This document shows positions 22,327 to 34,417 of a stretch of DNA of 64,000 nucleotides, piece after piece (positions within the stretch are counted from its first letter, which is position 1; every line of letters starts with the position of its first letter). The translations under genes and the position numbers were made by a program. Origin of the DNA: Mesorhizobium hawassense (GTDB taxonomy: Bacteria; Pseudomonadota; Alphaproteobacteria; Rhizobiales; Rhizobiaceae). The notes under the pieces are model-generated. The model was given only the letters and a program-made list of their open reading frames with translations. It made no database searches and was not told where the DNA came from. The stretch lies in NCBI RefSeq assembly GCF_003289945.1, contig NZ_QMBP01000003.1, positions 310,001 through 374,000 of the forward strand. The letters run 5' to 3'.

Positions 22327-23340
22327 ATGGCGGCTCAGATTTTCTCGGCCATATTCGTCATCATCATCGGCGTCGGCGGCTGTGTCGCCTATTTCTGGGG
22401 CGCCAACAAACTGCTCGATCTCGTCTTCCCGTCGCGCGGCGTCTCCGGCAGCGCCGCCGTCGACAATCTGCGCCGTCAGGGCCTGGTGCGGCCGTGGCTG
22501 TTCGTCGGCCCGGCGATGATCATCCTGACGATCTATCTGATCTATCCGGTGATCGAGACGCTGCGGCTTTCCTTCCTCGACCGCGGCGGCGAGCATTTCG
22601 TCGGCCTCGCCAATTACCAATGGGCGCTCGGCGACCATGATTTCCGCAATTCGATCTTCAACAACATCCTGTGGCTGGCGGTGGTGCCGGCGGCCTGCAC
22701 CTTCCTCGGCCTGATCATCGCCGTGCTCACCGACAAGATCTGGTGGGGCACGATCGCCAAGAGCCTGATCTTCCTGCCGCTGGCGATCTCCTTCGTCGGC
22801 GCCAGCGTGATCTGGAAATTCATCTACGAGTATCGCGGCGAGGGCCAGGTGCAGATCGGCCTGCTCAACGCCATCATCCAGTATTTCGGCGGCCAGCCGC
22901 AGGTGTGGATATCGCTGCCGTTCTGGAACAATTTCTTCCTGATGATCATCCTGATCTGGATCCAGACCGGCTTTGCCATGGTGATCCTGTCGTCGGCGCT
23001 GCGCGGCATTCCGGAAGAGACGCTGGAAGCGGCCGTGATCGACGGCGCCAACCCGTTCCAGATTTTCTGGAAGATCATGGTGCCGCAGATCTGGGGCACG
23101 ATCGCGGTTGTGTGGACCACCATCACCATCCTGGTGCTGAAAGTGTTCGACATCGTTCTGACCATGACCAACGGCCAGTGGAACAGCCAGGTGCTGGCCA
23201 ATCTGATGTTCGACTGGATGTTCCGCGGCGGCGGCGATTTCGGCCGCGGCGCCACGATCGCCATCATCATCATGATCGCGGTCATTCCGATCATGGTCTG
23301 GAACATCCGCCAGGCCAACAAAGAGACGGGAGGGCATTGA
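22327..23340 (+). CDS. aglF: Alpha-glucoside ABC permease AglF
   Basis: An inner-membrane permease of the CUT1 sugar class, 337 residues. Beyond the usual six helices it has an additional N-terminal helix (AAQIFSAIFVIIIGVGGCVA) that AglF proteins carry. The EAA loop is EETLEAAVIDGANPFQIFWK (about codons 230-250). It begins after a GGGAGAGGGACC ribosome site and ends one base before aglG. Confidence 0.93.
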   Translation: MAAQIFSAIFVIIIGVGGCVAYFWGANKLLDLVFPSRGVSGSAAVDNLRRQGLVRPWLFVGPAMIILTIYLIYPVIETLRLSFLDRGGEHFVGLANYQWALGDHDFRNSIFNNILWLAVVPAACTFLGLIIAVLTDKIWWGTIAKSLIFLPLAISFVGASVIWKFIYEYRGEGQVQIGLLNAIIQYFGGQPQVWISLPFWNNFFLMIILIWIQTGFAMVILSSALRGIPEETLEAAVIDGANPFQIFWKIMVPQIWGTIAVVWTTITILVLKVFDIVLTMTNGQWNSQVLANLMFDWMFRGGGDFGRGATIAIIIMIAVIPIMVWNIRQANKETGGH

Positions 23341-23341
23341 G

Positions 23342-24496
23342 ATGGCCGCGTCCACCGGAAAGTCCTTCGTCAACCGCTTCGGCGTTCATATCGCGGTGCT
23401 GATCTTCGTCGTCATCTGGACCATTCCGACGCTCGGCATTCTGGTCTCGTCGCTGCGCGACAAGGACCAGATCATCGCCTCGGGCTGGTGGAATTCCTTC
23501 TCGAGCTCCAGCCAGACCGAGGCCGGCCGGTTGCCGCCTGCTTCCGCGCAAACCCAGAAGGACGGCAAATACGTCATCGAGGGCAACGTCTTCGGCGACG
23601 GCGCCAAGCGCGCGATCAGCGCCTTCGGCACCAAGGCGGCGGCACCGACGCAGTACAAGGCCGGCACGGCTGCCGATCTCGGCGACGGGGTGTCGCTGCA
23701 GGTCAACGGCGACGGCAGCTTCGTGCTCGCTTCGCCGAAAGCCTTCGAAGGCGACCGTGGCCAGCGTGTCTACTATGCGTCATCGGCGCCGCCGAAATTC
23801 ACCACGGACAACTACGATGCCGTGCTGTTTTCGGAAGGCATCGGCCGCTCCTTCATGAACTCGCTGACGGTGACCATTCCCTCGACGATCATCCCGATCC
23901 TGATCGCGGCCTTCGCCGCCTACGCGCTGGCCTGGATGCGTTTTCCCGGCAGGGCGCTGCTGATCGCGGTCATCATCGGCCTGCTGGTGGTGCCGCTGCA
24001 GATGTCGCTGATCCCACTGCTCAAACTCTACAACGGCGTCGGTACGTTCTTCGGCGTGCCGTCGAAAACCTACCTCGGCATCTGGCTGGCGCATACCGGC
24101 TTCGGCCTGCCCTTCGCCATCTACCTGCTCAGGAGCTATATCGCCGGCCTGCCGCGCGAGATCATGGAATCGGCGCGCATCGACGGCGCCAGCGATTTCG
24201 AGATCTTCGTCAAGATCGTGCTGCCGCTGTCCTTCCCGGTGCTTGCCTCCTTCGCCATCTTCCAATTCCTGTGGGTATGGAACGATCTCTTGGTGGCGAT
24301 GGTTTTCCTCGGTACGGCACCCGACCAGATCGTGCTGACGGCCAAGCTCAACGCGCTGCTCGGCTCGAGAGGCGGCAATTGGGAGATCCTGACGACATCG
24401 GCGTTCATCACCATCATCGTGCCGCTGATCGTGTTCTTCTCGCTGCAGCGCTATTTCGTCCGCGGGCTGCTTGCCGGCTCGGTGAAAGGAGGTTGA
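23342..24496 (+). CDS. aglG: Alpha-glucoside ABC permease AglG
   Basis: The second CUT1 permease of the agl system, 384 residues. After the first helix (HIAVLIFVVIWTIPTLGILV) it has a periplasmic insertion of roughly 110 residues (about 45-160) before the remaining five helices, which makes it longer than MalG. Such an insert is typical of AglG. The EAA loop is PREIMESARIDGASDFEIFV and the C-terminus is the usual QRYFVRGLLAGSVKGG. Only 4 bases separate its stop from aglA. Confidence 0.93.
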   Translation: MAASTGKSFVNRFGVHIAVLIFVVIWTIPTLGILVSSLRDKDQIIASGWWNSFSSSSQTEAGRLPPASAQTQKDGKYVIEGNVFGDGAKRAISAFGTKAAAPTQYKAGTAADLGDGVSLQVNGDGSFVLASPKAFEGDRGQRVYYASSAPPKFTTDNYDAVLFSEGIGRSFMNSLTVTIPSTIIPILIAAFAAYALAWMRFPGRALLIAVIIGLLVVPLQMSLIPLLKLYNGVGTFFGVPSKTYLGIWLAHTGFGLPFAIYLLRSYIAGLPREIMESARIDGASDFEIFVKIVLPLSFPVLASFAIFQFLWVWNDLLVAMVFLGTAPDQIVLTAKLNALLGSRGGNWEILTTSAFITIIVPLIVFFSLQRYFVRGLLAGSVKGG

Positions 24497-24500
24497 GATA

Positions 24501-26165
<1,665 letters not shown>

Positions 26166-26200
26166 ACTTGCAAAACAAAGCTCAACGGGAGGAGAGAACC

Positions 26201-27313
<1,113 letters not shown>

Positions 27314-28499: not shown

Positions 28500-28928
28500 A
28501 TGCCTCTTTCCAACGTCTACGCCATTGCAAGCAAGGATATCGTTTTTGAATCCTTCGACGGCGAAGCCGTCGTGCTCGACCTCTCCAACGGCAAGTATTT
28601 CGGCTTTTCCGATTCCGGCAGCAAAGTGTGGCAGGCGCTGTCCTCGGGTGTCGGCACGGAAGCGCTGATCCAGTCGGCCGCGGGCACAGCGACGATCGAC
28701 GCCGCCGCGATCGAGACATTCATCGCGCAGTTGGTCGAGTTCGGGCTTTTGGCGCCCTCCAGCGCAACGCCGCTTCCGTCATCCGATGATTTGCCGGCAG
28801 CGCTGGCGGCGGCGAGCGAGCCGCTCAATGTCAGCGTCCATGACGACCTCGCCGACCTCATCATCGTCGACCCGATCCACGAGGTCGAGGAACCGCTCGG
28901 CTGGCCGGCCGTCAAGCAGGTTTCCTGA
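28500..28928 (+). CDS. PqqD-family peptide-chaperone-like protein
   Basis: A 142-residue protein whose first 90 residues fit the PqqD/RiPP-recognition fold: FESFDGEAVVLDLSNGKYFG and FSDSGSKVWQAL, then a helical end (FIAQLVEFGLLAP). The remaining 50 residues are acidic and unlike PqqD itself. In peptide-modification systems such domains hold the precursor peptide. Here no radical SAM enzyme is nearby and an HprK-like kinase follows 37 bases later, the arrangement NCBI curators call the HPr-rel-A system. It is the first gene of a six-gene cassette. The ATG at 28500 follows GAGAGC; an ATG at 28479 would add seven residues. Confidence 0.75.
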   Translation: MPLSNVYAIASKDIVFESFDGEAVVLDLSNGKYFGFSDSGSKVWQALSSGVGTEALIQSAAGTATIDAAAIETFIAQLVEFGLLAPSSATPLPSSDDLPAALAAASEPLNVSVHDDLADLIIVDPIHEVEEPLGWPAVKQVS

Positions 28929-28965
28929 GCGACCTGGGTCAGGCCGAGCCAGGCTGGAACGAACC

Positions 28966-30012
28966 ATGCCACGCGTGACGCTCGAGACATTGCCGGACTA
29001 CGCACGGTTTCTCATCGCCGCCGCTGAAAGCGCGCCCGAGCGGTTTCCGATCCAGCGAACCGTCCGCCTGCCCGGGCTGGAATTGCTCGCGCATCTCGGC
29101 CCCGGTGTGCTTGCGGATGCCCTTGGCCAGGCCTTCATCGAAGTCAAGGACGATCGGCGGGACATCCGCAAATGCCGTATCTTCATCGGTCATCCCGGTA
29201 TCGCCGGCATGCCGGAGCCGGCAAGCTGGGGCGATGCGCACTTCACCGAACACAGCTTTGCCCGAAAGCTCGCCGAAGCAGGGCTGCGCGGCCATCATTT
29301 TCACGATCTGGATTTCTGGCAAGTCTACGACCCCGAGCGGCGCGCCGGCGTCCAGCTGATGCGGTCGGCCGACGCGTTTCCGCCGTGGGAGCCCGGCGCG
29401 CCGTTACGGGCTTTCCTGCATTGGGAATACGCCGCACGGGGCATGCGGCTTACCCATGCCGGCACGCTGGGTCTCGGCGGCGAGGGCGTGCTGCTGGCCG
29501 GCGCCGGGGGCGCGGGCAAATCGGGCACCGTCGTTGCCGGCCTGCTGAACGGCCTGGACAGCGTCGGCGACGATTATGTGCTGATCGACCTCGACGGGGG
29601 CGTGAGGGCGCGGCCACTTTTTTCGACGTTGAAGCAGGATCCCAGGGGGTTCGCGCGGCTTGGCCTGGAAGGGCGGTTGGGGACCGGACGGCCGCTCAAC
29701 TGGCAAGGCAAGCACGTCTTTCACATTAGCGAGATCGCACCTCGCCCGGTAAGTGCAAGCATGGACATCTCTGCGTTGATGGTGCCACATATCGGCGACA
29801 GCAAGACGAGTTCGATCGAGCCGATGCCCCGCAAGGACGCCATCATCGCGCTGGCGCCGTCGGGCATCGCGCAGATGCCTGGCGAGCGGGAAAGCGGCTT
29901 TCGGTTCTTCAGCGATCTCACGCGCTTCCTGCCCTGCTACAGGCTTTCCCTCGGAACGCATCCCGACGAGATCGCCGGCACAATTCGGGATTTCCTCGCA
30001 CGGGCCGCTTGA
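28966..30012 (+). CDS. HPr kinase-related protein (HprK-rel-A type)
   Basis: A 348-residue protein with an HprK-like P-loop domain. Walker A is GAGGAGKS at residues 179-186, preceded by beta strands (GEGVLLA), and Asp202-Asp203 in SVGDDYVLIDLD match the acidic pair of HPr kinase. The N-terminal 150 residues are not like HPr kinase. No PTS phosphocarrier gene is nearby. Within this cassette it probably phosphorylates something other than HPr, such as a peptide or sugar intermediate; this is inference. Its stop overlaps the next gene by one base. Confidence 0.78.
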   Translation: MPRVTLETLPDYARFLIAAAESAPERFPIQRTVRLPGLELLAHLGPGVLADALGQAFIEVKDDRRDIRKCRIFIGHPGIAGMPEPASWGDAHFTEHSFARKLAEAGLRGHHFHDLDFWQVYDPERRAGVQLMRSADAFPPWEPGAPLRAFLHWEYAARGMRLTHAGTLGLGGEGVLLAGAGGAGKSGTVVAGLLNGLDSVGDDYVLIDLDGGVRARPLFSTLKQDPRGFARLGLEGRLGTGRPLNWQGKHVFHISEIAPRPVSASMDISALMVPHIGDSKTSSIEPMPRKDAIIALAPSGIAQMPGERESGFRFFSDLTRFLPCYRLSLGTHPDEIAGTIRDFLARAA

Positions 30013-30764
30013 TGAAACTGAGCGTGATCATGCCTGTCTTCAACCGCGAACGCTACGTCGTGCCGGCATTGCGCTCGCTGGTCAGGCAGCATGATGCCGC
30101 CGACCTCGACATCATCGTCATCGATGACGGCTCGAGCGACGGCTCCGCCGAAGCGGTGCGTTTTGTGATGCGCGAGCATCCTTGCATCCGCCTGTTTCAG
30201 CAGCGCAATCTGGGCGTCGCCAGGGCACGCAATGCCGGGCTGCGGCAATTGCCGGCGGATGCCGGCTTCGTGTCCTTCCTCGATTCCGACGACATTTCAC
30301 TTGCCGGACGCTTCAAGGCCGATCTTGCCCGCTTCGAGGCCGACCCCGGTCTCGAGCTCACCTATTCGCTGATGACCATGGCGGATCGGATCGACGACGA
30401 GAGGCTGGAGCCGACACCCGACAGCCGCACCATGACGCTTCGCGGAATCTCGCTGACGACCGCCCTGTTCAGTCGCGCGCTCGTCGAACGCATCGGTTTT
30501 TTCGACGAGGAATTCGAACAGGCCGAGGACACGGATTATCTGCTGCGCGTGTTCGAGAGCGGCCCGACATATGAGCTGCTGGACAGCGTCGCCGTCTACT
30601 ACCGGCGGCATACCGACAATTTAACCGGGGAGCATGCCAGCAGGGTCCGCAATCATTTGAGGGCCATCCACAAATCGATGCGGCGTCGCCGGGCGGATCC
30701 GTCGCTCAGCGCCGTGCGGGGCATTTTCGAGCTGAAGAGCCCGCCCGAGTGGCAAATGATGTGA
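30012..30764 (+). CDS. Family 2 glycosyltransferase 1
   Basis: A 250-residue GT-A fold enzyme with no membrane segment. Motifs are LSVIMPVFNRERYV at the start, IDDGSSDGS (residues 38-46), the metal-binding DSDD at 91-94 and EDTDYLLRVF, the acceptor-side ED motif near residue 175. It ends in a basic region (KSMRRRRADPS). It overlaps the HprK-like gene by one base (TGATG). The next gene encodes a protein of equal length that is closely similar along its whole length, so the two are tandem duplicates. Donor and acceptor are unknown. Confidence 0.88.
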   Translation: MKLSVIMPVFNRERYVVPALRSLVRQHDAADLDIIVIDDGSSDGSAEAVRFVMREHPCIRLFQQRNLGVARARNAGLRQLPADAGFVSFLDSDDISLAGRFKADLARFEADPGLELTYSLMTMADRIDDERLEPTPDSRTMTLRGISLTTALFSRALVERIGFFDEEFEQAEDTDYLLRVFESGPTYELLDSVAVYYRRHTDNLTGEHASRVRNHLRAIHKSMRRRRADPSLSAVRGIFELKSPPEWQMM

Positions 30765-30828
30765 ATCCCGGGCACAATGGGATCAGCTCGTATGGGGGAT
30801 CGGCTTGGGTGGTTCTTTGAGGTCGCGG

Positions 30829-31581
30829 ATGCGGCTGAGCGTCATCATGCCCGTGTACAATCGCGAGGCCTATGTCGGCGCGGCGCTGCGTTCGCTGCTT
30901 CGGCAACGCGATGCCGCCGATCTCGACATCATCGTGATCGATGACGGCTCTACCGACGGCTCGACTGACGCCGTGCGCGCGATGATGGACGAGGCACCTT
31001 GCATCCGGCTGTTCCGGCAGGAAAACGCGGGCGTGACCCGAGCGCGCAACAGCGGGCTCAGGCAGCTCAGGCCGGAGACGGAACTGGTGTCCTTTCTCGA
31101 TTCGGACGACATCTCGCCGGCCGGACGCTTCGAGGCGGATGTGGACCTTTTCCGGAAAAACCCCTCTCTCGAGCTCACCTATTCCAGGATGATGCTGGTC
31201 GACAGGATCGACGAGGAGACGCTGGAGCCGACCTCCGACAGCAACAGCATCACCGTTCGCGGCATTCATCTTTCGGCCGCGATCTTCTCGCGCCGTCTGG
31301 TCGACCGGATCGGCGGTTTCGACGAGGATTTCATCCAGGCCGAGGATACGGACTTTCTGCTGCGCAGCTTCGAGGTCGGCCCCCGCTACCTGCTGCCGGA
31401 CACGCTGGCGCTTTATTACCGGCGGCATCCCGGCAACATGACAAGGCAGGAAGATGTCCAGTCGCGCGAATTCTTGCGCGCCGTCTATAAATCGATGAAG
31501 CGCCGCAGGGCCGACCCGTCGCTGAGGCCCATCGAAGGCATCTTCGAATTGAAAAAGCTCGCTGACTGGCGGTTCATGTGA
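30829..31581 (+). CDS. Family 2 glycosyltransferase 2 (tandem duplicate)
   Basis: This 250-residue enzyme parallels the preceding one block by block: LSVIMPVYNREAYVGAALRS, IDDGSTDGS, FLDSDDISPAGRFEAD, QAEDTDFLLRSF and KSMKRRRADPSL. I chose the ATG at 30829, just after GAGGTCGCGG, because it gives the same N-terminus as its paralogue; in-frame codons reach back to 30805. A 64-base gap separates it from the first copy. It overlaps the third glycosyltransferase gene by one base. Divergence between the copies suggests different acceptors. Confidence 0.88.
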   Translation: MRLSVIMPVYNREAYVGAALRSLLRQRDAADLDIIVIDDGSTDGSTDAVRAMMDEAPCIRLFRQENAGVTRARNSGLRQLRPETELVSFLDSDDISPAGRFEADVDLFRKNPSLELTYSRMMLVDRIDEETLEPTSDSNSITVRGIHLSAAIFSRRLVDRIGGFDEDFIQAEDTDFLLRSFEVGPRYLLPDTLALYYRRHPGNMTRQEDVQSREFLRAVYKSMKRRRADPSLRPIEGIFELKKLADWRFM

Positions 31582-32258
31582 TGGGCAGATACGGCGTCGT
31601 CATTCCGGCCTACAACGCCAGCGCAACGATCGCGGAGACGCTGCGATCGGTGGCGGCGCAGACGCTGCCGCCCGAACTGGTCGTGGTGGTCGACGACGGC
31701 TCGAGCGACGATCTCGCCGCCGCTGTCAGCGGCATCGACCTGCCGCTCAGGCTCTTGCGCCAGGACAATACCGGGCCGGGCAGCGCGACCAACCGCGGCA
31801 TCGCCGCGCTGTCGACGCCCTTCATCGCCACGCTCGATGCCGACGACCTTTGGCTGCCGGGAAAGATCGCGGCGCAGCTGGCCCATCTCGAACGGTTTCC
31901 CGCAACGTCCGGGGTCTTCACCCATATGCGCAGTTTCCGCGATGGAGAACCCGACGCGATGGCTCCGACCGCAGTGGCCGGCTGGGTGCGTTCGACGATG
32001 CTGATCCGCCAGGAGGTGGCCCAGAGCATCGGGGCGATGGTCGATCCGCCAGGCGGCCGCGGCGAGATGATCGACTGGATCTCCCGGGCCCGCGAGGCCG
32101 GCTTTGTCCTCGACATGCTCGACGAGACCCTGGCGCTGCGGCGCATCAGGCCAGGCAGCCTGTCCTATGGCAGAGACACCGCGCGCGACCGCGGCTACCT
32201 GGAAGTGGCGCGCCTGGCCATGCTGCGGCGGGCGCAAAGCAAGGCCGGTTCCAGCTGA
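31581..32258 (+). CDS. Family 2 glycosyltransferase 3
   Basis: A third, shorter GT2 enzyme of 225 residues. It has YGVVIPAYNASATIAETLRS, VDDGSSDDLA and the metal motif LDADDLWLPGK, then a C-terminal part different from the two preceding enzymes. No membrane helix is seen. It is linked by one-base overlaps to the gene before and after, so it is an integral part of the cassette. It could add a later sugar to the same product. Confidence 0.87.
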   Translation: MGRYGVVIPAYNASATIAETLRSVAAQTLPPELVVVVDDGSSDDLAAAVSGIDLPLRLLRQDNTGPGSATNRGIAALSTPFIATLDADDLWLPGKIAAQLAHLERFPATSGVFTHMRSFRDGEPDAMAPTAVAGWVRSTMLIRQEVAQSIGAMVDPPGGRGEMIDWISRAREAGFVLDMLDETLALRRIRPGSLSYGRDTARDRGYLEVARLAMLRRAQSKAGSS

Positions 32259-33730
32259 TGGCGAAGATCCGTCGCATCGGCAGGCGTTTTCCCGACTATG
32301 GCTGGTCCTGGCCAACGGGATCGCTCGACCAGTTGCTCAAGGCGGCACTTCTGCCCGACGAGGAGGCGGCACGCCTTTGCGCCGCGGACTGGCTCAACGA
32401 GAACGACATCGACCATGTCTCCTTCCGGGAACACCGGCTGCTGGCGGCGATTTCCGACAGGTTCGGACGCAAGCTTGCCGGCCACGCCGCCTATCCACGC
32501 CTGGTCGGCCTGCAGAAGATGCTGTGGACCAAGTCGCGCATGGCCATGCGCGAGGCCGAGCCGACCTTGAAAGCGATGGTCGACGCCGGCTGTTCGGTGA
32601 TGCTGATCAAGGGCGCCAGCCGCATCGCGCTCGATGCCGCCGCGCAGCGCGGGCGCGTGGCGCATGACATCGATATCCTGGTACAGCCGCAGGATATGCA
32701 GCCGGCTTTCGACGTGCTGCGCGACCGCGATTGGCAGAACGCCACCGGCGTCTCGCCGCAGTATCTGCGCACAAGGCTGGCGTCGCTGCGCTCGATGAAT
32801 TTCTTCAAGGGGAATTACGGCGACATCGACCTCCACCAGCTCGCTTATGACGGCTCGCAGCAGAACGCCGAGGACGACCTCGCGATCTGGCGCCGCGCGA
32901 TCGCCGCCGAATTCAGCGACGTCGAAGTGGTCGTGCCTTCGCCGGCCGACCGCATCGCGCTCGCCATCGCGCATGGCGGCCTCGACGCGCATACGCACAG
33001 CGACTGGCTCGTCGATTGCACCGTGGCCATTCAAGGCGGCACTGTCGACTGGACCATATTCCTCGATATCGTCGCCGGGCGCGGTCTCGCCGTCGCCGCG
33101 GCGGTGGCGCTTTCCTACCTGGCGCTGGAGATCGGCATCGCGGTGCCGGAAGCCGTCCTGGCCAAGGTGGTGGAGATGGCCGACCGGCGTGGCGCGGCGC
33201 GCCTGTCGTCCGTCCTGCAGGCCAAGCCGCGCACCGATTTCGGGGCACTGACCTGGCTGTCTCGCGGCTTTGCCAAGCAACTGCGCCTGCAGCGCAAGAA
33301 GGGCCGGCTGAAGCAGGCCGAGCGGGATATAGTGTGGCGCGGCAAGCCGATGTCTGCAAAGGCGGCCGGCGAACCTGCCGCGTTCGTGCTTTCGCAGACC
33401 CTGGACAAGCCGCAAGGCGATACCGGCGAGTTGATGCTCGATCTCATCGTGCGCATCGCCGTTCCGCCGGTCCGGCGCCGCATCGAGATGGAAATCAATG
33501 CGGGCGACCGGCATGTCGCCCGGCTGCGCTCGATGGCGATCAGCCGATCCGGTGGGGAGCGGGTGCTGCGCTTTCGCGGCAGGGTGAAGCTCGACCATGC
33601 GGGGCGGCCCCTGGTGCTGGAGGCGCGACCGTCACGGCAGTTCCGTGTCTGGGACGATGAGCAGGCCGTCGCCACCTATGGCGCGCTGCCCTTCCAGCTC
33701 GTTTCGGCAAAGTTTTCCAGAACCGGCTGA
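32258..33730 (+). CDS. Nucleotidyltransferase family protein (PF14907 type)
   Basis: A 490-residue protein whose central part is a nucleotidyltransferase fold of the NTP_transf_5 type: LIKGASRIALD around Lys118-Gly119, and VAHDIDILV with His136, Asp137 and Asp139 as likely catalytic residues. DIDLHQLAYD, about 60 residues later, supplies further acidic residues. The C-terminal 120 residues are beta-rich and of unknown role. Family members repeatedly occur with PqqD- and HprK-like genes. It ends the cassette, overlapping the third glycosyltransferase gene by one base. A transfer of a nucleotide to a peptide or glycan is possible but unproven. Confidence 0.75.
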   Translation: MAKIRRIGRRFPDYGWSWPTGSLDQLLKAALLPDEEAARLCAADWLNENDIDHVSFREHRLLAAISDRFGRKLAGHAAYPRLVGLQKMLWTKSRMAMREAEPTLKAMVDAGCSVMLIKGASRIALDAAAQRGRVAHDIDILVQPQDMQPAFDVLRDRDWQNATGVSPQYLRTRLASLRSMNFFKGNYGDIDLHQLAYDGSQQNAEDDLAIWRRAIAAEFSDVEVVVPSPADRIALAIAHGGLDAHTHSDWLVDCTVAIQGGTVDWTIFLDIVAGRGLAVAAAVALSYLALEIGIAVPEAVLAKVVEMADRRGAARLSSVLQAKPRTDFGALTWLSRGFAKQLRLQRKKGRLKQAERDIVWRGKPMSAKAAGEPAAFVLSQTLDKPQGDTGELMLDLIVRIAVPPVRRRIEMEINAGDRHVARLRSMAISRSGGERVLRFRGRVKLDHAGRPLVLEARPSRQFRVWDDEQAVATYGALPFQLVSAKFSRTG

Positions 33731-33741
33731 GACGGGGCTCG

Positions 33742-34146
33742 TCAGGAGTTCGGAGTGGTCACCTTCAACGTGGGAAAATAGGTTTGGTAGCGACCGACAT
33801 CACGGGTCAGAAGCGGAAGGCTGCCGACCGCGGCATGGGCACCAATGAAAAAATCGGGCAACACGCCGGTCCTGTGTCCTCCTGACCGGCGGTACTGTGT
33901 AAATACCTTTCCGGCCAGGAAAAGAGCCGTCCGTGGTATGGGCGCCATTTCAAGACCGGCCGCATCAAGAAACGCATCGAGATCCTCGCTTCGAGCGTAG
34001 CGAACGGCGAGCTCGGCATAGACCACATCATTGATCAACAATGGTCCGTTGAGACTCGCCGCCTCAAGCTGAGCAACCGACCAATCCGCCCAGTTTGGAT
34101 CGTCCGTGACAAGGTCGAGCAGAACGTTGGTGTCAATGAGCGTCAC
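33742..34146 (-). CDS. VapC-like PIN-domain toxin
   Basis: A 134-residue PIN-domain ribonuclease. The four acidic active-site residues are visible as Asp5 (LIDTN), Glu45 (YAELAV), Asp98 (LPDFFIGAHA) and Asp116 (LLTRDVGRY). Translation starts at a GTG two bases after the stop of the antitoxin gene upstream. It is convergent with the cassette that ends at 33730, leaving 11 bases between them. Confidence 0.88.
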   Translation of the reverse strand: MTLIDTNVLLDLVTDDPNWADWSVAQLEAASLNGPLLINDVVYAELAVRYARSEDLDAFLDAAGLEMAPIPRTALFLAGKVFTQYRRSGGHRTGVLPDFFIGAHAAVGSLPLLTRDVGRYQTYFPTLKVTTPNS

Positions 34147-34148
34147 GC

Positions 34149-34376
34149 TTAGCCACGCGTCAGCGCCATGATCGCGTCGGTCGTGAGCCCCTCGCCGGCA
34201 TGACCGCGCAACTTGGCGAAGCGGCTCACCGGCTGCTTTCTGTCGACGCGAGCCAGCACCACGCTTCCATCGGCGGCACGCCGGAAATCGACCCTGCTTC
34301 CCGGCACGATCCCCAACAGATCGCGGACCGGTTTCGGAATGGTGACTTGTCCCTTTGCCGTAACGGTGGTGGCCAT
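34149..34376 (-). CDS. AbrB/VapB-type antitoxin
   Basis: A 75-residue antitoxin with a swapped-hairpin AbrB DNA-binding domain: TVTAKGQVTIPKPVRDLLGI and GSRVDFRRAADGSVVL. The C-terminal tail should wrap the PIN toxin. The ATG at 34376 follows GAGGAGCG; an ATG at 34406 would add ten residues that overlap the operator palindrome. It lies directly before the vapC-like gene, and the module presumably represses itself. Confidence 0.88.
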   Translation of the reverse strand: MATTVTAKGQVTIPKPVRDLLGIVPGSRVDFRRAADGSVVLARVDRKQPVSRFAKLRGHAGEGLTTDAIMALTRG

Positions 34377-34387
34377 CTTCGCTCCTC

Positions 34388-34417
34388 GGTAATACCAGAT
34401 GTGCACAAGGTATTACC
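34388..34417. promoter_or_regulatory. Palindromic operator of the VapBC-like module
   Basis: GGTAATACC and its exact complement GGTATTACC are separated by 12 bases just upstream of the antitoxin start. The placement and symmetry fit a binding site for the antitoxin-toxin complex. Confidence 0.65.

Follow-up and report, generated by a model that had tools for sequence, protein, structure and literature searches.

A PqqD-like protein with a conserved, precursor-like C-terminal tail in a kinase, glycosyltransferase and nucleotidyltransferase cassette of Mesorhizobium

The six-gene cassette and its conservation in the genus

We analyzed a 64,000-nucleotide stretch of the Mesorhizobium hawassense genome (contig NZ_QMBP01000003.1, positions 310,001 to 374,000; here called the window), in which six genes, A to F, all on the + strand, make up a cassette at positions 28500-33730. 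Gene A (28500..28928) encodes a PqqD-like protein of 142 amino acids that passes the Pfam gathering score of PF05402 (28.9 bits against 23.4). It is composed of a RiPP recognition element (RRE; RiPP, ribosomally synthesized and post-translationally modified peptide) at residues 22-84 (28563..28751), the extent of the PF05402 match, a variable linker at residues 89-108 (28764..28823), and a precursor-like tail at residues 109-142 (28824..28925; LNVSVHDDLADLIIVDPIHEVEEPLGWPAVKQVS). Gene B (28966..30012) encodes an HprK-like kinase of 348 amino acids with a conserved His164, a P-loop GKS (184-186) and Asp202-Asp203; the profile of its family had solved HprK as its top structural match (1jb1, E 6.7e-7), in which the His, the P-loop and the Asp-Asp pair align. 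It is followed by three genes for GT2 glycosyltransferases with matches to PF00535, namely C (30012..30764; 81.2 bits), a variable tandem copy, D (30829..31581; 88.7 bits) and E (31581..32258; 92.2 bits), and by F (32258..33730), which encodes a nucleotidyltransferase of 490 amino acids of the family PF14907 (NTP_transf_5; 62.6 bits against a cut-off of 31.2). The initial annotation had read the same six functions from the sequence, and the Pfam and family-profile matches bear this out. It had also described four of the five junctions as 1-base overlaps or gaps under 70 bases, a description that applies to all five (A-B gap of 37 bases, B-C overlap of 1, C-D gap of 64, D-E and E-F overlaps of 1 each). 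A, B and F had no match among the PHROGs, and a plasmid search using the A protein of the window gave no match.

The HPr-rel-A system (TIGR04352) pairs a PqqD-like with an HprK-like protein, and the first two genes had initially been associated with it; HPr is a conceivable target of the kinase. Weak NCBIfam similarity and the conserved HprK catalytic residues would be compatible with either this system or a genuine HPr kinase that controls a phosphotransferase system. However, B scored only 21.8 bits with TIGR04352 (cut-off 200) and 17 bits with TIGR00679 (cut-off 240), and it is strictly linked to genes for tail-bearing PqqD-like proteins, GT2 enzymes and nucleotidyltransferases. In the scans of curated models, B remained below every Pfam and NCBIfam cut-off and A below every NCBIfam cut-off. 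We did not retain either association, and we consider both very improbable.

The cassette is a real, conserved unit. Full-length B was found in 21 of 49 genomes of the genus (that of the window and 48 others) and was absent from the 32 other genomes searched in the order, and the gene order A-B-GT2(s)-F was kept in all 20 of the other strong orthologous loci of the genus. Scattering of these genes without conserved order, which would have argued against a unit, was thus not seen within the genus; loci from other phyla share the gene set in varying order. One of the 20 loci (L050) is damaged: B and D run into each other in truncated form, and F is broken close to its end. This suggests that the cassette can be lost. 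Six divergent copies are present in five genomes of the genus in a different chromosomal setting; five of them have the whole set in the same order at 29-39% identity, and the sixth (L056) has no F. The third GT2 gene is variable, six of the 20 window-type loci having a single C/D-type gene. When the divergent copy L051 was taken as the reference, exactly five open reading frames (ORFs), namely A, B, two GT2 genes and F, were matched in at least 25 of 27 loci.

Two DUF680 proteins are divergently encoded upstream of the cassette. These exported proteins had been put forward as substrates, and they adjoin the cassette in the window, with DUF680 genes near 19 of the 20 window-type loci. However, they lie less than 1 kb from A in only 4 of the 19, the nearest one is more than 3 kb away in most window-type loci, and none of the six divergent cassettes has one. 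Because the cassette order is kept throughout the genus and the DUF680 genes are found at 19 of 20 loci of one type versus 0 of 6 of the other, they are synteny and stand outside the unit, and their role as substrates is highly unlikely.

A conserved C-terminal tail in the PqqD-like protein

In an alignment of A, the variable linker gives way to a C-terminal stretch with better conservation than the RRE. In a comparison with 20 orthologues of the genus, residues 109-137 of the A protein of the window had 27% synonymous and 8% nonsynonymous codon differences, versus 28% of each kind in residues 1-88; the linker had 30% synonymous and 40% nonsynonymous differences. The synonymous level is therefore equal in the tail and the RRE, whereas the nonsynonymous level is 8% versus 28%. 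We delimited the tail by these codon differences and by a motif shared across phyla. As a six-codon pattern, DPIH[DE]V occurs once in the genome, and the tail has no matching model among the Pfam and NCBIfam models matched.

A search of genome contigs for the peptide pattern Q[DE]L[LI][TLV]LDPI returned 138 stretches. Relatives of A are encoded by 120 of these, and 18 were not confirmed; the best 80 of the 120 were analyzed. Their consensus is [FY]xxPx[LV]x[KR][YF][TS]DMQ[DE]LLLLDPIH[ED]V[DG][ED]xGWPxxK, in which the search pattern itself fixes nine columns. Outside these nine columns, the counts among the 80 loci were 79 for P, 79 for D, 76 for M, 80 for H, 74 for V, and 77 each for G, W and P of the GWP unit, and the mean share of the top residue was 0.68 in the 20 other tail columns versus 0.47 in 88 domain columns. 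The second half of the tail, LLxLDPIHEVDExGWP, is nearly invariant across the relatives. The 80 loci contained no second copy of the tail motif. Four tails (L120, L133, L161, L164) have the GWP unit repeated (e.g., GWPNVDDKKGWPTRNPD), as in multi-core precursors.

The titles of the records with tail loci name Chloroflexota, Acidobacteria, Desulfuromonas and other deltaproteobacterial groups, Lentisphaerae, Verrucomicrobia, Ignavibacteria, Bacteroidetes, Nitrospirota, Gemmatimonadetes, Cyanobacteria, a planctomycete and other groups. Nearly all of these records are metagenome assembled, and individual phylum labels could be incorrect; cultured isolates account for three of the 80 titles (Stella sp. 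ATCC 35155, Methylovulum psychrotolerans Sph1 and Cf. Phormidesmis LEGE 11477). In Crinalium epipsammum PCC 9333, the plasmid pCRI9333.04 has genes for a PqqD protein with the tail, a nucleotidyltransferase, an HPr kinase, an FkbM methyltransferase and a glycosyltransferase. The spread is sparse, with the tail profile matching 7 of 398 genomes of the phylum at E <=0.01, of which 4 belong to the genus of the window and one is a weak partial match.

In lasso peptide leaders, the RRE binds a YxxPxL motif at positions -17, -14 and -12 (PMC10368454), and an RRE-bound precursor motif [Y/W]xxPx[L/V/I/F/A] is likewise described (PMC13381572). The first half of the tail is leader-like and matches this motif, which was in register in 73 of the 80 tails, versus none of 878 C-termini of other ORFs and 6 of 16,000 shuffled segments. 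In the clade of the window, SEPLNV replaces FxxPxL, and DLxDLIxxDPIHEVxxxxGWP is retained; the divergent copies of the genus retain FMRPEL.

The N-terminal domain of A has the winged-helix RRE fold. Its profile had TbiB1 as the best match in the PDB (E 5.7e-19), and Foldseek placed the complex of TbiB1 with its leader first, both for the A protein of the window (5v1v, E 1.3e-4, template modeling [TM] score 0.78) and for its homologue at the locus L104 (E 1.2e-5, TM 0.89-0.91; TMt 0.89). When bound to an RRE in solved complexes, the leader peptide forms an additional strand (PMC13381572). The AlphaFold model of the A protein of the window has, besides the RRE, a predicted strand at 111-114 and a helix at 117-123. 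For the L104 homologue, a canonical one, the predicted local distance difference test (pLDDT) is approximately 95 in the RRE, 66-70 in the linker, 85-88 in the leader-like half, modeled as a strand (122-125) and a helix (128-132), and 61-66 in the second half.

Kinase linkage and gene neighborhoods across phyla

We searched 151 genomes of the phylum Chloroflexota, 199 of the phylum Acidobacteriota and 337 of the class with the kinase profile, and distinguished strong matches (at least 130 bits, n = 18, the window included) from weak ones (below 100 bits, n = 35). The tail tracks one kinase subfamily. An A protein with the complete tail is encoded near 16 of the 18 strong matches, at L205 and L207 more than 1.5 kb away from the kinase, and near the other two (G344 and G247) the tail ends after LDP (DDMAELLALDPPLPAAPR), adjoining genes for the kinase, a GT4 enzyme, a GT2 enzyme and a nucleotidyltransferase-like protein. 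None of the 35 weak matches has the tail within about 1.5 kb on each side; one of them, G964, was viewed more widely and has no tail there either, and at 16 of the 35 loci a PqqD ORF ends without it. Many of the 18 genomes with strong matches had previously been found by the tail or A searches or used in profile building; of those first reached via the kinase (G865, G1020, G1023, G1053 and G1090), all five have the tail, four of them outside the tail search pattern.

Among 45 well-covered loci, defined by 8 kb or more of downstream and 2 kb or more of upstream DNA, the kinase was found near A in 41, the nucleotidyltransferase in 36 and a GT2 enzyme in 44. The kinase and a GT2 enzyme form one chain at ten loci (L111, L117, L140, L146, L153, L161, L162, L164, L167 and L170), with two GT2 domains in three of these fusions. 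An exporter-type, MsbA-like ATP-binding cassette (ABC) protein is encoded near A in 22 of the 45 loci (at least 350 model positions covered), and no exporter-type match was found in the window or in the genus loci L031-L056. Sulfotransferase-like ORFs are present in 7 of the 80 loci.

A few other neighbors were observed. A radical S-adenosylmethionine protein is encoded near a tail-bearing A in L111 (4727-5689), and its ORF cluster was seen in four loci. In the window, genes predicted to encode a sugar ABC importer and a glucosidase-like enzyme lie upstream of the DUF680 genes (22327-27313, + strand). Directly 3' of the cassette is a PIN-like and AbrB-like pair (33742-34406, - strand), which from its sequence is probably a toxin-antitoxin module.

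Known peptide systems and the role of the tail

A PqqD-like RRE, an HprK-like kinase and a PF14907 nucleotidyltransferase are a documented set in the gene clusters of phosphorylated lasso peptides and linear polyphosphorylated peptides (LPP). HprK-like kinases are reported to phosphorylate lasso-type precursors, with B1 accelerating the reaction (BsfK/BsfB1) (PMC10368454), and PsmN to put hexoses on the phosphate. The initial annotation had proposed a pathway that phosphorylates, glycosylates and nucleotidylates a peptide or carrier-bound glycan; the conservation of the unit and this documented set speak for the peptide-handling part of that proposal, which had overlooked the tail of A.

The cassette resembles the paeninodin, pseudomycoidin and Bsf clusters in its PqqD-like, B1-type protein, its HprK-like kinase, its nucleotidyltransferase family and the YxxPxL-type leader (PMC8498205, PMC9266682, PMC10368454). 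Unlike these clusters, it has no cyclase or B2 protein alongside, and a lasso peptide proper was rejected for this reason. The B2 family PF13471 is over its cut-off in 15 of 50 genomes with a tail-bearing A and nowhere in the other 35, and none of the PF00733 matches in the genome of the window falls within the window region. The final Ser of the A protein of the window had prompted the idea of a C-terminal Ser phosphorylation as in paeninodin; we dropped it, as only 3 of the 80 tails end in Ser and the last residue of the orthologues is S, N, T or P.

Another close likeness is to LPP (Nat Commun 2026), whose clusters unite an RRE, an HprK-like kinase, an NTP transferase and an MsbA-like exporter without a cyclase, so that this combination is already known (PMC13381572). 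The first three are all found in the cassette of the window, and the absence of a cyclase, often glycosyltransferase-rich loci, a YxxPx[VL]-type leader and, in many relatives of the cassette, the MsbA-like exporter are further likenesses. There are also differences. The LPP precursor is a free ORF of 35-200 amino acids with the consensus YxxPxVLxHQxIxFETxxS and variable C-termini, whereas the peptide of the cassette is fused to the RRE and has another consensus; LPP has a phosphorylated Ser3, whereas the tails have no Ser at the aligned place; and LPP is described as restricted to Bacillota, whereas the tail-bearing A is spread over many phyla (PMC13381572). In addition, the LPP exporter was not matched in the cassette of the window, and the LPP SpI peptidase has a counterpart over the cut-off of TIGR02228 in only 8 of 51 genomes, searched genome-wide, with sub-threshold scores in further genomes and no match in the genome of the window.

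Free precursors of related type are encoded elsewhere. The locus L236 (G964:C127) is a full lasso-type cluster with two PqqD proteins, B2, an Asn synthase, a free precursor, a kinase and a PF14907-type nucleotidyltransferase. Its precursor aligns without gaps with the tail at -17, -14, -12, -9, -7, -5, -4 and -3, and was weakly matched by the A profile (14.8 bits, E 0.0024 in a small set). The M. hawassense genome itself has a second set outside the window (G000:C13, approximately 132.4-135.5 kb; L229, L240), with a PF14907 nucleotidyltransferase, an HprK-like kinase, B2 (PF13471), a tail-less PqqD protein and the small ORF MKKTYEKPVLVKREKLSNVLAVASGPVG. Because the nearest Asn synthase on that contig is approximately 26 kb off, this set may be a linear phosphopeptide system. 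Its small ORF is leader-like (YEKPVL) and lies approximately 200 kb from the cassette, together with B1, B2, kinase and nucleotidyltransferase genes. One alternative is that the tail of A serves as an internal pseudo-leader and gives way to a precursor from another genomic locus; such action in trans would fit a conserved, non-modified tail. However, the distant cluster has its own tail-less RRE, and beside the tail-bearing cassettes a leader-like pattern was found in none of the 1355 small ORFs of the 80 loci (ORFs overlapping larger ones left out), nor did any of these small ORFs recur in more than four loci. We consider this explanation improbable.

We favor the explanation, at a probability of roughly one half, that the cassette is a RiPP-like system in which the RRE is fused to its own precursor-like peptide, serving the kinase, the PF14907 enzyme and the GT2 enzymes; the peptide handled by the cassette may thus belong to one of the cassette's own proteins. 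The RRE at the N-terminus of A would probably bind the leader-like half of the same protein's tail in cis, which would present the conserved half LLxLDPIHEVDExGWP to the enzymes. By analogy with the lasso-type and LPP clusters, kinase B would phosphorylate the presented peptide, and F and the GT2 enzymes would then build a sugar on the phosphate, making the tail the putative modified substrate.

Several observations weigh against this explanation. Its weak point is the acceptor, because the tail has no invariant Ser or Thr: neither residue is present after DPI in 12 of the 80 tails, or from residue 114 on in 4 of the 21 window-type orthologues. A core peptide would not usually be so nearly invariant across phyla, and two genomes keep DM.ELL.LDP and the kinase without the IHEV..GWP half. 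With SEPLNV, the clade of the window has no aromatic residue at -17 and the Pro shifted by one. The model of the tail of the window is weak (pLDDT 71 at 111-120 and 50 at 121-130), and what points to docking of the tail in the RRE groove is its predicted ordered secondary structure only. The kinase and/or the nucleotidyltransferase is missing from the fetched DNA in 10 of the 45 well-covered loci, with both missing in L099, L122 and L172, and no peptidase was seen among the identified recurrent neighbors.

The near-invariance and the missing acceptor are also explained by a docking or regulatory role of the tail, the main rival, in which A would be a scaffold that recruits or activates the kinase, the GT2 enzymes and the nucleotidyltransferase, and the modified molecule would be a glycan, a lipid or another compound. 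The two kinase-keeping genomes that have lost all but DM.ELL.LDP, the GT2-rich surroundings and the kinase-GT2 fusions point the same way. On the other hand, the tail starts with a precursor motif of the kind bound by RREs, and the pairs of HprK-like and PF14907-type enzymes studied so far act on peptides. We rank the scaffold role below the fused precursor, as a possibility to be taken seriously.

The fused, nearly invariant peptide and its wide spread over phyla set the cassette apart from LPP; we found no description of the tail motif strings, of RRE-precursor fusions or of this gene set in open papers, subscription papers and supplements being outside the search. More tentatively, the cassettes could represent a widespread RiPP-like class in which RRE and precursor are one "self-presenting" protein and a nearly invariant core gives rise to one conserved phospho-glyco-peptide in many phyla, carrier- or cofactor-like rather than a variable toxin; we regard this as conceivable without leaning toward it. 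Should the tail serve for docking alone, it is nevertheless a highly conserved motif for which the scans returned no Pfam or NCBIfam model, and a marker with which such systems can be found. If it is the substrate, it would locate the missing peptide of the orphan PqqD/HprK/PF14907 cassettes, the question that has blocked work on them, and would establish an RRE-precursor fusion architecture, with a peptide conservation across phyla that suggests a shared physiological product.

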